From an uncultured bacterium (lineage in GTDB: Bacteria > Actinomycetota > Actinomycetes > S36-B12 > CAIYMF01): a stretch of 64,000 nucleotides of DNA. Below are positions 34,377 through 47,411 of this stretch, in pieces. Each line of letters opens with the position of its first letter. Within the stretch, counting starts at the first letter, position 1. The stretch spans positions 1 through 64,000 of the forward strand of contig CAIYMF010000312.1 of NCBI GenBank assembly GCA_903927265.1, read 5' to 3'. A model generated the notes under the pieces. The model searched no databases, was not told the origin of the DNA, and saw only the letters and a list, made by a program, of their open reading frames with translations. The position numbers were made by a program, and so were the translations under genes.

Positions 34377-35426
34377 GTGAGCGAGTCGACGCTGGGAGTG
34401 GTCGATGCTGACCGCCTACGCGACTTCCTGGCTCCTGTCGTCGGTGGAATCGACGCCGATCTGGAGATCGACCTAGTATCCGGCGGCCGCTCAAACCCCA
34501 CATTTCGGGTCACCGATGGCACGCGGCACTGGATTCTCCGCCGCCAGCCCTTTGGTCAAGTTCTGGAAAGCGCTCACGATATGGGCCGCGAATTCCGGGT
34601 GATGACCGCGCTGCGAGACACAGCCGTACCGGTTCCTGAAACAGTTGCGCTCTGCCAGGATCCGACGGTCATCGGCTCGCCGTTCTACATCATGATCGAC
34701 CTTGAAGGAATCACTCTGCGCAACAACGCTGAAACCGGCGAGCTCTCGGACATCGTTCAGGAGCATGTGGGCAGCCAAATGATTGAAATATTGGCGAATC
34801 TGCACGAGATCGATCCTGAGTCGGTCGGCCTCGGTGATTTCGGGCGACCCGATGGTTTTCTTGAACGACAGGTACGCAGGTGGCGCAAGCAGTGGGAAGG
34901 CGCGCACATCCTGCATCGTCCCAACCTTGACCTCTTGCTCGATCGACTCGGTGCGTCAGTGCCCCAGCAAAGTTTTCCCGGCATCATTCACGGCGATTTC
35001 AAACTCGACAACATGATGCTCAACAGCCTCGACGAGGGACGCATTACCGGAGTACTTGACTGGGAGATGTCCGCACTCGGCGACACGATGGCAGATCTCG
35101 GTGTCTTCATGAGCCTGTGGGACGAGCCTGGTCATCCCTTCAATCCGGTATCGGCAGGTACGACAGCGCATCCCGGATTCCCGACGCGTGCTCAAGCGGT
35201 GCAACGCTACGCGGCAATTCGCGGCATCGAACTTCCCAACACGGACTGGTACGTCGTGCTCGCGTTCGTCAAGGTCGCGGTCATCGTGGAACAGATACAC
35301 ACCCGGCACGTCAAGGGGCTCACTATCGGAACCGGTTTCGACGATGCCGGTGACATGGTGGACCCACTGCTTGATCGCGCTATGGAGATTGCGGCGACCA
35401 CTTCGGTCGTCGGTCTCCGCTTGTAG
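34377..35426 (+). CDS. Phosphotransferase family protein, ACAD10/11 kinase-domain-like
   Basis: Aminoglycoside-phosphotransferase-fold protein of 349 residues. ATP/substrate region SGGRSNPTFRV and WILRRQPFG, catalytic loop IIHGDFKLDNMML (Asp207, Asn212), and metal Asp228 in VLDWEMSALGD. This is the domain fused in front of acyl-CoA dehydrogenase in animal ACAD10/ACAD11; here the dehydrogenase is the next gene, 38 bp away. Characterised relatives phosphorylate the 4-hydroxyl of 4-hydroxyacyl-CoA, priming it for removal. GTG 34377 follows GGGGAGG. Antibiotic resistance is unlikely given the context. Confidence 0.9.
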   Translation: MSESTLGVVDADRLRDFLAPVVGGIDADLEIDLVSGGRSNPTFRVTDGTRHWILRRQPFGQVLESAHDMGREFRVMTALRDTAVPVPETVALCQDPTVIGSPFYIMIDLEGITLRNNAETGELSDIVQEHVGSQMIEILANLHEIDPESVGLGDFGRPDGFLERQVRRWRKQWEGAHILHRPNLDLLLDRLGASVPQQSFPGIIHGDFKLDNMMLNSLDEGRITGVLDWEMSALGDTMADLGVFMSLWDEPGHPFNPVSAGTTAHPGFPTRAQAVQRYAAIRGIELPNTDWYVVLAFVKVAVIVEQIHTRHVKGLTIGTGFDDAGDMVDPLLDRAMEIAATTSVVGLRL

Positions 35427-35464
35427 TCAGCTGGTCGCTCGCGACCCCAACGAAGGAGAACGAA

Positions 35465-36691
35465 GTGGATTTCGACTACACCGACAAGGTGAAGGATCTG
35501 CAGGGTCGCGTGACCGCGTTCATGCAGGACTACGTCATTCCGTCAGAAGAGCCAATCAGCACCTGGTTCGCTGAGAACCGCGATGAGTGGGGCGCGGCTC
35601 CGATGATGGACGACCTCAAGGCGGAGGCCAAGAAGCAGGGACTGTGGAATCTCTTCCTGCCGGAAGACTCGCGCGGAGCCGGTTTGTCGAACCTCGAGTA
35701 TGCGCCGCTGGCTGAGATCACAGGCTGGAGCCCGACGATCGGCCCCGAGGCACTCAACTGCTCGGCTCCCGACACCGGCAACATGGAAATCCTCTCGCGC
35801 TACGGATCACCCGAACAGCAAGAAGAGTGGCTCAAGCCCTTGCTCGCCGGCGATATTCGCTCGTGTTTCTCCATGACCGAGCCGGCCGTCGCGAGTTCTG
35901 ACGCCAACAACATCGCACTGCGCATCGAAGACGACGGTGACTCATGGGTTCTCAACGGCCGCAAGTGGTGGTCGTCATCGGCCCTGCGTCGTGAAACCAA
36001 GGTTGCGTTGGTGATGGGCGTCACCGACCCTGAAGCAGAGGTTGGAAAGCGTCACAGTCTGGTGTGCGTTCCGATTGACGCACCCGGGTTGACGATCCTG
36101 CGCTCGACGACCGTGTTCGGCTTCGACGACCGCCACGAAGGTGGTCACGGAGTTCTCGACTACGTTGACGTTCGCGTTCCGAAGTCAGCGTTGCTCGGGC
36201 CACGCGGTGGAGGCTTCGCTGTCGCTCAATCACGCCTCGGCCCAGGACGCATCCACCACTGCATGCGCTTGATCGGAATGGCGGAGCGTGCGGTGGCGAT
36301 GATGACTGAGCGCGCCAAGACCCGCGTCACCTGGGGTGAGCCGGTTGCCGACCAGGGCGTATTCCAGACGTGGCTGGCAGACGCTCGCATCCAGATCAAC
36401 GCCGCCCGCCTCGTGGTGCTGAACGCAGCCTTCAAGATGGACACGATCGGCAATAAGGAAGCTCGCCACGAGATTGCCGCAGCCAAGATCATGGTGCCGC
36501 AGGTTGCGCGGGATGTGATTGACCGTGCCATCCAGACGTTCGGTGGTGCCGGAATTTCGAGTGACTTCCCGCTTGCTTACCTGTACGTCACTGCTCGTTA
36601 CTTGCAGGTGGCCGACGGACCCGACGAGGTGCACCGCCGTTCACTCGCGCGTGCCGAACTTAAGCGTGTGCCGCTTCTCAAGGTGATGTGA
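35465..36691 (+). CDS. Acyl-CoA dehydrogenase, ACAD10/11 type
   Basis: FAD-dependent acyl-CoA dehydrogenase-fold protein of 408 residues. Features shared with the ACAD domain of ACAD10/11 are APDTGNMEILSRYGSPEQQ, RSCFSMTEPAVASSDANN, GRKWWSSSA, SRLGPGRIHHCMRLIG and the C-terminal ADGPDEVHR. In that family the enzyme processes 4-phosphoacyl-CoA, eliminating phosphate, rather than simple beta-oxidation. GTG 35465 follows GAAGGAG. It overlaps the enoyl-CoA hydratase gene (TGATGA), so kinase, dehydrogenase and hydratase are made together. Confidence 0.92.
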   Translation: MDFDYTDKVKDLQGRVTAFMQDYVIPSEEPISTWFAENRDEWGAAPMMDDLKAEAKKQGLWNLFLPEDSRGAGLSNLEYAPLAEITGWSPTIGPEALNCSAPDTGNMEILSRYGSPEQQEEWLKPLLAGDIRSCFSMTEPAVASSDANNIALRIEDDGDSWVLNGRKWWSSSALRRETKVALVMGVTDPEAEVGKRHSLVCVPIDAPGLTILRSTTVFGFDDRHEGGHGVLDYVDVRVPKSALLGPRGGGFAVAQSRLGPGRIHHCMRLIGMAERAVAMMTERAKTRVTWGEPVADQGVFQTWLADARIQINAARLVVLNAAFKMDTIGNKEARHEIAAAKIMVPQVARDVIDRAIQTFGGAGISSDFPLAYLYVTARYLQVADGPDEVHRRSLARAELKRVPLLKVM

Positions 36692-45841: not shown

Positions 45842-45866
45842 GCACCACATCCACAAGGAGGATCAG

Positions 45867-47411
45867 ATGACTGTTGCCGATGCGCAGGCGCGCACAACAA
45901 TCGCACCGAACGGTCAGGAACGACGCGTTGAATCAGCCGACGAGATCTGGGCTCGCATGCCCTACATCCGCAACGGTGGCGACTACCTCGAGTCCTTACG
46001 TAACAGGGGCACTTCACTGTTCATGTTCGGCGAGCGCATCGACGAGCCGGCTGATCACCCGATCATCACGCCCTCGATCAACGCATTGCGTGCCACGTAT
46101 GACCTCGCGATCGACGAGCCCGAGTTGGCTTCGGCGCACTCACCGCTCATCGACGACACCGTCAACCGTTTCCTACACATCGTTGAGGGTCCTGAGGATC
46201 TGCAGAAGAAGCATTCGATGCAGCGCAGGCTGGGCCAGATCACCGGCACCTGCTTCCAGCGGTGCACCGGCCTTGACTCGATCTCGGTGATGCATTCGAT
46301 TACTTACGACCTGGACGCGGCTAACGGAACCCCGTATCACGAGCGTTTCCTAGCGTTCTTGCGCGAGGCTCAGCGCCACAACATTCTCATCGCCGCCGGA
46401 ATGACCGACCCGAAGGGTGACCGATCAAAGGCGCCATCCGAGCAGGCCAATCCCGACCTGTTCCTGCATGTGTCCGGCCGCAACGACGAGGGCATCTTCA
46501 TTCGTGGTGCGAAAGCGCATATGACTGGCGGGTGGAACCAGCACTGGATCTGTGTGCTGCCGACGATGAACCTACGCGAGTCTGATGCTGACTACGCGGT
46601 AGGTGTGATGGTGCCGGGCGATGCCGACGGAATCACCTACATCTATGGGCGCCAATCCTCTGACACCCGGGCACTTGAGCCGGGAACCATGGACAAGGGC
46701 AATGCCGAATACGGTGGCCAGGAAGTGCTCGTGCACTTCGACGACGTGTTCATTCCGTACGAGCACGTGCTTCTCGATGGTGAATGGTCGATGGCTCAGA
46801 CCCTCGTTTCGCGCTTCACCTCCTATCACCGCGCGAGTTACATCTGTAAGACCGGTCTCGGCGATGTGCTGATCGGTGCGGCCGGCGAGGTCGCCGATGC
46901 CAATGGTGTCTCGAAGGCGGCACATGTGCGCGACAAACTCGTTGAGATGACGCATTTGAACGAGACCATCGCGTCGTCGTCGATTGCCTCGGCCGCCAAA
47001 GCGAATCAACTCGATTCGGGTATCTGGATGAATGACGAAATGCTGGCCAATGTCTGCAAGCACAATGTCACCCGCTTCCCGTACGAGATTGCTCGACTTG
47101 CCCAGGATCTCGCGGGCGGACTCATGGTGACGATGCCGTCAGAGGCTGATTTCCGTTCGGAGGAAGTGGGCGAGTTGATCACGGCATTGCTCGCGGGACG
47201 AGAGGGTGTGTCAACTGAGCACCGTATGCGCATTATGCGTTTGATTGAGAACCTCACTCTCGGCCGCAACGCCGTGGGCTATCTCACCGAGTCAATGCAT
47301 GGGGCCGGATCGCCGCAGGGACAACGAATTCAGATCATGCGCGGGATGGACCTCGACACTAAGCGGGCACTCGCACGGGCCCTCGCTGGAATCGAGGACG
47401 ACCCGTCGTGA
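45867..47411 (+). CDS. 4-hydroxybutyryl-CoA dehydratase-like protein (AbfD/HpaB family)
   Basis: Protein of 514 residues in the HpaB/AbfD flavoprotein family. AbfD converts 4-hydroxybutyryl-CoA to crotonyl-CoA by a ketyl-radical route using FAD and a [4Fe-4S] cluster. AbfD cluster and active-site residues are present: TCFQRC (Cys129, Cys133, Gln131), YHRASYICK (His321, Tyr325, Cys327, Lys328), FGGQE-equivalent YGGQE (Glu286), and TESMHGAGSP. True HpaB monooxygenases lack these cysteines. The His-to-Cys spacing is one residue shorter than in the clostridial enzyme (HRQSYGGCK). ATG 45867 follows AAGGAGGA. The stop overlaps the next start by 4 nt. Closely related substrates, or vinylacetyl-CoA isomerisation, are possible. 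Confidence 0.88.
   Translation: MTVADAQARTTIAPNGQERRVESADEIWARMPYIRNGGDYLESLRNRGTSLFMFGERIDEPADHPIITPSINALRATYDLAIDEPELASAHSPLIDDTVNRFLHIVEGPEDLQKKHSMQRRLGQITGTCFQRCTGLDSISVMHSITYDLDAANGTPYHERFLAFLREAQRHNILIAAGMTDPKGDRSKAPSEQANPDLFLHVSGRNDEGIFIRGAKAHMTGGWNQHWICVLPTMNLRESDADYAVGVMVPGDADGITYIYGRQSSDTRALEPGTMDKGNAEYGGQEVLVHFDDVFIPYEHVLLDGEWSMAQTLVSRFTSYHRASYICKTGLGDVLIGAAGEVADANGVSKAAHVRDKLVEMTHLNETIASSSIASAAKANQLDSGIWMNDEMLANVCKHNVTRFPYEIARLAQDLAGGLMVTMPSEADFRSEEVGELITALLAGREGVSTEHRMRIMRLIENLTLGRNAVGYLTESMHGAGSPQGQRIQIMRGMDLDTKRALARALAGIEDDPS

Follow-up and report, generated by a model that had tools for sequence, protein, structure and literature searches.

When two unrelated enzymes that remove the same hydroxyl group are encoded a few kilobases apart, do they belong to one pathway, or are they neighbours with separate tasks? 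This question is raised by a 64,000-nucleotide stretch (here called the window) that forms part of contig C312 (CAIYMF010000312.1) in the draft genome of an uncultured actinomycete (3.67 Mb, 353 contigs, 98.4% complete). The window encodes KIN34 and ACAD35, a kinase/acyl-coenzyme A (acyl-CoA) dehydrogenase (ACAD) pair resembling LvaA/LvaC and ACAD10/11, and AbfD, a homologue of radical 4-hydroxyacyl-CoA dehydratases. An earlier interpretation of the DNA made without database searches (the sequence-only reading) had placed both chemistries in one gamma-hydroxy-acid/gamma-lactone catabolic system. We consider it somewhat probable that the acyl-CoA-rich region instead holds two independently regulated, neighbouring catabolic modules, of which the AbfD module perhaps acts on a 2-methyl-branched substrate. 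In the sampled genomes, the recurring unit is not AbfD with an ACAD10/11-type protein but AbfD with an alpha-methylacyl-CoA racemase (AMACR), and this pair is a better lead than an integrated system. Most window genes were assigned by Pfam and NCBIfam scans and solved-structure searches; TetR32, QOR31 and the genes past 54 kb were assigned by eye.

Results

Two candidate chemistries for 4-hydroxyacyl-CoA

ACAD35 (35465-36691, + strand) scored 378-396 bits against ACAD11 chains and 397 bits against 4hr3, an unnamed putative ACAD having the same motifs as ACAD35; other ACADs scored at most 149 bits. In PMC12440821, ACAD10/11 and LvaC are described as sharing R626, R631, H634-C-M-R637 and the catalytic Asp753, with R631 also common to other ACADs. 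ACAD35 has all of these residues, in RLGPGRIHHCMR and ADGPDEVH. The full set was found in none of ten control ACADs (eight from the same genome, one from the sister species and one from locus L003), whereas, apart from position 635, where some have Ala or Ser, it is kept in 33 other ACAD10/11-type sequences that were picked by similarity, three of them copies of the sister gene. KIN34, an APH-fold kinase of the LvaA/ACAD10-11 kinase-domain type, starts at a GTG codon (34377-35426, +) and lies 38 bp upstream of ACAD35; it matched Pfam APH at 1.9e-51 and ACAD11 at 147-151 bits. It carries HGDFKLDN, LDWE, REF and ERQ, of which HGDFKLDN, REF and ERQ align with 8v3v, and, with numbering by eye, has the kinase residues D220, N225, R86 and R176. 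Both arginines that PMC12440821 names for ACAD10/11-type kinases are present. With the diagnostic LvaA/LvaC and ACAD10/11 residues in place, the earlier assignment to an ACAD10/11-like pair stands, and phosphorylation/elimination chemistry is the supported prediction for KIN34 and ACAD35 by family and catalytic residues.

The same genome has a second kinase/ACAD pair on contig C55, beside a thiolase, and the two pairs are only 58%/43% identical. Moreover, an ACAD10/11-type ACAD (E ≤ 1e-60) occurs in at least one copy in 44 of 60 relatives. Because these relatives and the genome's own C55 carry such an ACAD, the kinase/ACAD pair is common as such, and the window pair is best read as a divergent second copy of it.

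The second chemistry is predicted for the 45867 protein, AbfD (45867-47411, +). It scored 667 bits against 6vjr (59.7% identity; presumably a Nitrosopumilus enzyme) and 531 bits against 1u8v (52.8% identity), with flavin monooxygenases of the superfamily at 111 bits or less. What we take to be the [4Fe-4S] ligands (C99, C103, H292 and C299) and the catalytic residues (Q101, T190, E257, Y296, K300 and E455), mapped onto 1u8v, are all present, and none of the four ligands is found in HpaB 2yyg or L043. All ten residues are present in 43 of 45 aligned sequences, the exceptions being 2yyg, which keeps T190 and K300, and L043, which keeps none. Thus, scores, cluster ligands and catalytic residues bear out the AbfD-like assignment, and family and catalytic residues support the prediction of radical dehydratase chemistry, a reaction that uses flavin adenine dinucleotide (FAD) and an iron-sulphur cluster according to PMC7078158 and PMC8364193.

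In the sampled genomes, AbfD recurs with a racemase and not with the kinase/ACAD pair

The distance from ACAD35 to AbfD is 9.2 kb, in agreement with the 9 kb noticed earlier, and the sequence-only reading had proposed searching genomes for a split ACAD10/11 pair and AbfD within 20 kb of each other. This search was done in 42 AbfD-bearing genomes (the duplicate G453 was dropped and G000 was added; in a few genomes the first-look candidates were partly scored, e.g. 43 of 54 in G442). An ACAD10/11-type ACAD (E ≤ 1e-60) is encoded in 40 of the 42 genomes and lies within 20 kb of AbfD in three, which represent two lineages, compared with 0.79 expected if the 74 copies were placed uniformly at random; draft contigs may conceal further cases. 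The three are the window genome, the sister species and a Halieaceae genome (G444, UBA5044; L065 with L026), in which a 49% identical ACAD is 11.9 kb and a 34% identical kinase ~15 kb from AbfD. G444 is the only close case outside the genus, where 0.75 copies are expected. Proximity of AbfD and ACAD10/11 as a conserved trait was consequently rejected: beyond the sister species, it is near chance. The earlier statement that no described cluster has both is uncontradicted, if weakly supported, as among the literature matches listed none names '4-hydroxybutyryl-CoA dehydratase'.

The gene following AbfD, absent from the sequence-only reading, encodes AMACR (47408-48565, +) and shares its first 4 bp with the end of AbfD. 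Against the alpha-methylacyl-CoA racemase 1x74 the protein scored 390 bits, whereas no CoA-transferase gave more than 134 bits, and the alternative of a class III CoA-transferase, considered because it is a member of Pfam CoA_transf_3, was rejected on these scores. H126, D156 and E241, which we take to be the catalytic positions, are present in 41 of 41 aligned racemase sequences, including that of the window.

AMACR homologues (E ≤ 1e-60) occur in 40 of the 42 AbfD genomes. In 20 of the 42, no more than 2.5 kb separates AMACR from AbfD (the widest gap is 1.93 kb), compared with 0.07 copies expected. The order is AbfD-AMACR in Patulibacter, as in the window, and AMACR-AbfD in Alcanivorax. All 20 linked racemases fall into one clade (100/99), together with two unlinked racemases of Alcanivorax relatives and apart from 18 others. 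Among the window genes, AMACR alone recurs next to this AbfD in different lineages. Thus, what recurs in the sampled genomes is the AbfD-AMACR pair. Four genomes (G424, G431, G440 and G454) have a second AMACR homologue of 37-38% identity at 13.0-15.4 kb from AbfD.

Other neighbours of AbfD were inspected in chosen frames at six loci, and those in Alcanivorax (ceramidase, MsrA and an unknown protein), Haliea and Patulibacter-type genomes gave no hint of the substrate. In Alcanivorax, a ceramidase-like gene and a gene for an unknown protein precede AMACR-AbfD (L019, 4492-9244; L006, 5897-8594), with MsrA between them in L019. L006 also has Wadjet defence genes (JetA, an SbcC-like ATPase and JetD) and a gene for a BrxL-like protein near AbfD (13524-21512). 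A literature search found no paper naming both '4-hydroxybutyryl-CoA dehydratase' and 'methylacyl-CoA racemase', and none combining Alcanivorax, methylacyl-CoA racemase and pristane; two matches name both AbfD and Alcanivorax.

AbfD of the window belongs to a separate bacterial clade

In the phylogenetic tree, the window AbfD groups with Patulibacter, Svornostia and two sequences from Actinomycetota metagenome-assembled genomes, which are presumably of the Solirubrobacterales type. A larger clade adds Alcanivorax, Haliea and Saprospiraceae, and the resulting 37-sequence clade is sister to 6vjr (99/95); we know of no characterized enzyme within it. One of the sequences placed beside Patulibacter and Svornostia is that of L003, from a genome of ~5 Mb whose record is titled Bifidobacterium breve, a label that looks wrong. 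Few genomes of the window's own class encode AbfD (three of 394 at E ≤ 1e-100); of 60 near relatives, five have a true AbfD and one has a 26% identical HpaB-like protein. Identity to the window AbfD is 58-60% in order relatives, 77-79% in Patulibacter-type sequences and 71-73% in Alcanivorax. AbfDs of these other taxa are closer than those of order relatives, which suggests lateral acquisition of AbfD, and we infer that the AbfD/AMACR pair was acquired in this way.

Sixteen AbfD positions have one residue in at least 90% of the 37 clade sequences and never in the six outside sequences; M106L, N110S, G147A, A148G, Q189M and A218M replace residues that are invariant outside the clade. Clade members that lack the AMACR link also have the 16 substitutions. 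A structure model of AbfD (mean predicted local distance difference test score 74; residues 462-510 below 50) was too poor for use in the C-terminal portion of the active site.

Two palindrome classes at the promoters

The sequence-only reading had attributed promoters with the same AACGAACG core to both gene sets. The core is indeed present in both operon promoters and occurs seven times in the window (3.3 expected; eight of 100 shuffles reach as many), but there is no copy in front of AbfD, which comes fifth in an apparent operon headed by the ligase at 40940. Furthermore, the palindrome around the core is of one kind (class A) at the kinase promoter and of another (class B) at the promoter at 40.8-40.9 kb. 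Only three exact matches to class A, AACGAACGNTCGSY, occur in the genome: the one at 27311 precedes the 27357 operon, that at 34229 the 34205 ligase and that at 34332 the kinase. The corresponding operator-like palindromes are at 27311-27326 (-), at 34227-34242 (+) before FACL32 and at 34330-34345 (+), downstream of a TTGACA box and 31 bp before the kinase start. Class B, ACTMACGWWCGKKAGY, matches exactly at 40774 and 40909 only, in the divergent TetR40/ligase promoter (40774-40789, + and 40909-40924, +), the latter palindrome being flanked by a TTGACA box (40872) and the start of the ligase gene (40940). Regulation through a shared core was rejected as stated, as flanks and partner half-sites differ and neither class has exact matches outside its own promoters.

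In the sister species (89% identity across 38.6 kb), four of the five palindromes are unchanged; the fifth, at 34330, differs at its first base and keeps the core. This conservation is modest evidence because the bases around 27311 and 34227 hardly change either. Because the patterns were derived from the sites themselves, the informative part is their absence elsewhere; with one mismatch, class B has seven genome matches and its reversed control nine, i.e. it does no better. The simplest reading is two regulators with two operator classes. TetR32 is a candidate reader of the class A sites, and any pairing of regulators with sites is putative. The kinase regulon may include the 27357 operon, which has a class A palindrome before it and comprises a phosphatase (by eye), LLM and ligase 29261.

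Gene content of the two modules

On the left side, divergent from the kinase, are the acyl-CoA ligase FACL32 (32628-34205, -; family scan), the TetR-family regulator TetR32 (32042-32614, -; open reading frame and helix-turn-helix by eye) and, as third gene, the quinone-oxidoreductase-like dehydrogenase QOR31 (31074-32045, -; open reading frame with start and family by eye, 97% in the sister species). KIN34 and ACAD35 are followed by ECH36 (36688-37491, +), a crotonase by scans that, judged by eye, lacks both of what we take to be the hydratase glutamates, and by a FabK/nitronate-monooxygenase-like flavoprotein (37518-38492, +; family scan); the gaps in this run are +38, -4 and +26 bp.

On the right side, an SDR oxidoreductase (38507-39265, -; family scans), the crotonase ECH39 with both catalytic Glu (39293-40072, -; scan, motif by eye) and the regulator TetR40 (40118-40717, -; PF17932 and PF00440) are divergent from a ten-gene run (40940-53284) with gaps of -4 to +43 bp. 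It begins with the acyl-CoA ligase FACL40 (40940-42514, +; family scans), a PimC-like ACAD (42517-43653, +; scans) of the ordinary, non-HCMR kind (the sister copy, L063, also lacks HCMR), its IpdE2/PimD-like partner (43650-44672, +; family scans) and a thiolase with Cys/His/Cys motifs by eye (44672-45841, +; TIGR01930 377.9 bits, cut-off 240.55), which at E ≤ 1e-130 was found only within the genus (two of 148 genomes). AbfD and AMACR are followed by a PF04199 'cyclase' hydrolase (48583-49491, +; family scan), a fused 2-oxoacid dehydrogenase E1 alpha-beta (49492-51489, +; family scans), the crotonase ECH51 with both catalytic Glu (51533-52297, +; scans, motif by eye) and, as last gene, the 3-hydroxyacyl-CoA dehydrogenase HBD52 (52301-53284, +; family scan). 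Both gene runs are presumably transcribed as operons. No E2 or E3 was found among the scanned genes near the fused E1, and a second 'cyclase' hydrolase-like gene (by eye) is at 56887-57864.

The three acyl-CoA ligases noticed earlier (29261-30922, +; 32628-34205, -; 40940-42514, +) and the thiolase are thus present, and of the hydratases ECH39 and ECH51 hold up while ECH36 does not. The possible lactonase is an N-acyl homoserine lactone (AHL)-lactonase-like metallo-hydrolase (53290-54195, -) with an HLHHDH motif and 126 bits to 9kho; however, it is on the opposite strand, outside the AbfD operon, and its AttM score of 168.6 bits is below the curated family cut-off of 390.

Discussion

In the model of two modules, each set of genes would have its own task. 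In module A (kinase 34377, ACAD 35465 and partners), a 4-hydroxyacyl-CoA would be phosphorylated and the phosphate then eliminated in a flavin-dependent step, as for LvaA/LvaC and ACAD10/11. In module B (ligase 40940 to dehydrogenase 52301), the ligase and the two-gene ACAD at the front of the operon would allow beta-oxidation of a longer acid with a terminal hydroxyl to a primary-alcohol 4-hydroxyacyl-CoA, which is probably the substrate of the module and would be dehydrated by AbfD in a radical reaction. The operon's own hydratase, 3-hydroxyacyl-CoA dehydrogenase and thiolase would complete the conversion to acetyl-CoA; indeed, by motifs judged by eye, AbfD, the crotonase with both Glu, HBD52 and the thiolase make up a full set from 4-hydroxyacyl-CoA to acetyl-CoA. 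The racemase gene, which overlaps the end of AbfD, hints at a flux that is in part 2-methyl-branched, e.g. 4-hydroxy-2-methylbutyryl-CoA.

Could the two modules nevertheless form one system, in which AbfD takes short substrates, the kinase and ACAD take long or branched ones and a lactonase feeds both? Both enzyme sets are intact and 9.2 kb apart in an arrangement that is kept in the sister species, the AACGAACG core is in both promoters, a lactonase-like gene is nearby, and G444 also has the ACAD and the kinase close to AbfD. By contrast, the palindromes at the two promoters differ, proximity elsewhere is at chance level, and the lactonase-like gene lies outside the AbfD operon, far below the AttM cut-off. 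Thus, of the sequence-only reading we retain that both chemistries are encoded, and we regard the integrated gamma-hydroxy-acid system as unlikely. It is similarly improbable that the kinase/ACAD pair is a drifted paralogue acting on another acyl substrate and not on a 4-hydroxy acid: the second pair on C55, beside a thiolase, and the low identity between the pairs would fit such drift, but every phosphate-recognition and elimination residue given in PMC12440821 is kept. A stronger competitor, to which we give a little less than an even chance, is that module B is a plain 4-hydroxybutyrate (4HB) pathway in which 4HB, polymers or even-chain omega-hydroxy acids (the last by our derivation) supply 4-hydroxybutyryl-CoA for conversion to two acetyl-CoA, with AMACR serving other lipids of the same operon. 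All the necessary enzymes (AbfD, hydratase, 3-hydroxyacyl-CoA dehydrogenase and thiolase) are in the operon, and AbfD has the same catalytic residues as the two solved enzymes; against this, AMACR is the one window gene that accompanies AbfD across lineages, and the clade residues Q189M, N110S and G147A/A148G differ from both solved enzymes. The plain 4HB pathway and the drifted paralogue concern the substrate only and are compatible with two modules; our estimates for the substrate overlap with that for the two modules and are not meant to add up.

We also put forward, tentatively, a bolder idea, namely that the AbfD clade of these lipid- and hydrocarbon-degrading bacteria has shifted from 4-hydroxybutyryl-CoA to 2-methyl-branched 4-hydroxyacyl-CoA, chiefly 4-hydroxy-2-methylbutyryl-CoA, with a dedicated racemase setting carbon 2. 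Saturated isoprenoid alcohols attacked from the tail end yield, by our derivation, 4-hydroxy-2-methylbutyryl-CoA, for which a racemase acting on carbon 2 would be fitting. The compound would be the remnant of tail-end beta-oxidation of a phytanol- or dihydrocitronellol-type alcohol, and its dehydration would give tiglyl-CoA and then acetyl-CoA and propionyl-CoA.

Several observations weigh against two modules with a branched substrate in the AbfD module. The AMACR link is the sole argument for a 2-methyl substrate, and Alcanivorax with its close kin accounts for 17 of the 20 linked genomes; 22 of the 42 AbfD genomes are without a close link, including L002, L003 and L004, three of the four closest AbfD relatives outside the genus, and 40 of the 42 have AMACR homologues regardless of the link. 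The 42 genomes were gathered by similarity to the window AbfD and form an uneven sample. Operon B also has ordinary beta-oxidation enzymes, and the 'cyclase', the fused E1 and the lactonase-like gene are without a place in the proposed pathway. The clade-specific substitutions are only mildly enriched within eight residues of a catalytic residue (six of 16 positions, compared with 97 of 484 columns), no more than a suggestive difference. Finally, the palindrome patterns were built on the very sites that they describe, and the class A pattern when reversed has one genome match.

With two modules as the favoured model, the story of one island with two chemistries gives way to a link that can be tested: members of two phyla have a racemase next to an AbfD of this kind. 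Should the substrate prove to be branched, AbfD radical dehydration would reach beyond 4-hydroxybutyrate metabolism and CO2 fixation and would help Alcanivorax-like oil degraders to dispose of the methyl-branched ends of lipids or isoprenoids, a new route in which radical chemistry completes isoprenoid breakdown. It would also call for caution in taking such AbfD genes from metagenomes as markers of carbon fixation.

The design of the two modules can be compared with known systems. In the lva operon of Pseudomonas putida, as described in PMC12440821 and PMC11342911, the kinase and ACAD (LvaA/LvaC) are separate genes, as in the window, and lva as well as mammalian ACAD10/ACAD11 resemble the window pair in HCMR, the upstream Arg, the catalytic Asp, the kinase HGD..N and two Arg. 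Unlike lva, the window pair has a ligase, a Glu-less crotonase and a FabK-like flavoprotein as neighbours and its own palindrome class. The lactonase-like hydrolase has the HLHHDH motif and family-level similarity in common with AttM-type AHL/gamma-butyrolactone lactonases, but is far below the family cut-off and on the opposite strand. AbfD is of the same family as 1u8v and 6vjr, with the same [4Fe-4S] ligands and catalytic residues; unlike them, it belongs to a separate bacterial clade with clade-wide substitutions, an AMACR neighbour and a ligase-led beta-oxidation set. Similarly, the window AMACR is 50% identical to MCR (1x74) and shares H126, D156 and E241 with it; unlike MCR, it belongs to a subclade in which 20 of 22 sampled sequences adjoin AbfD.

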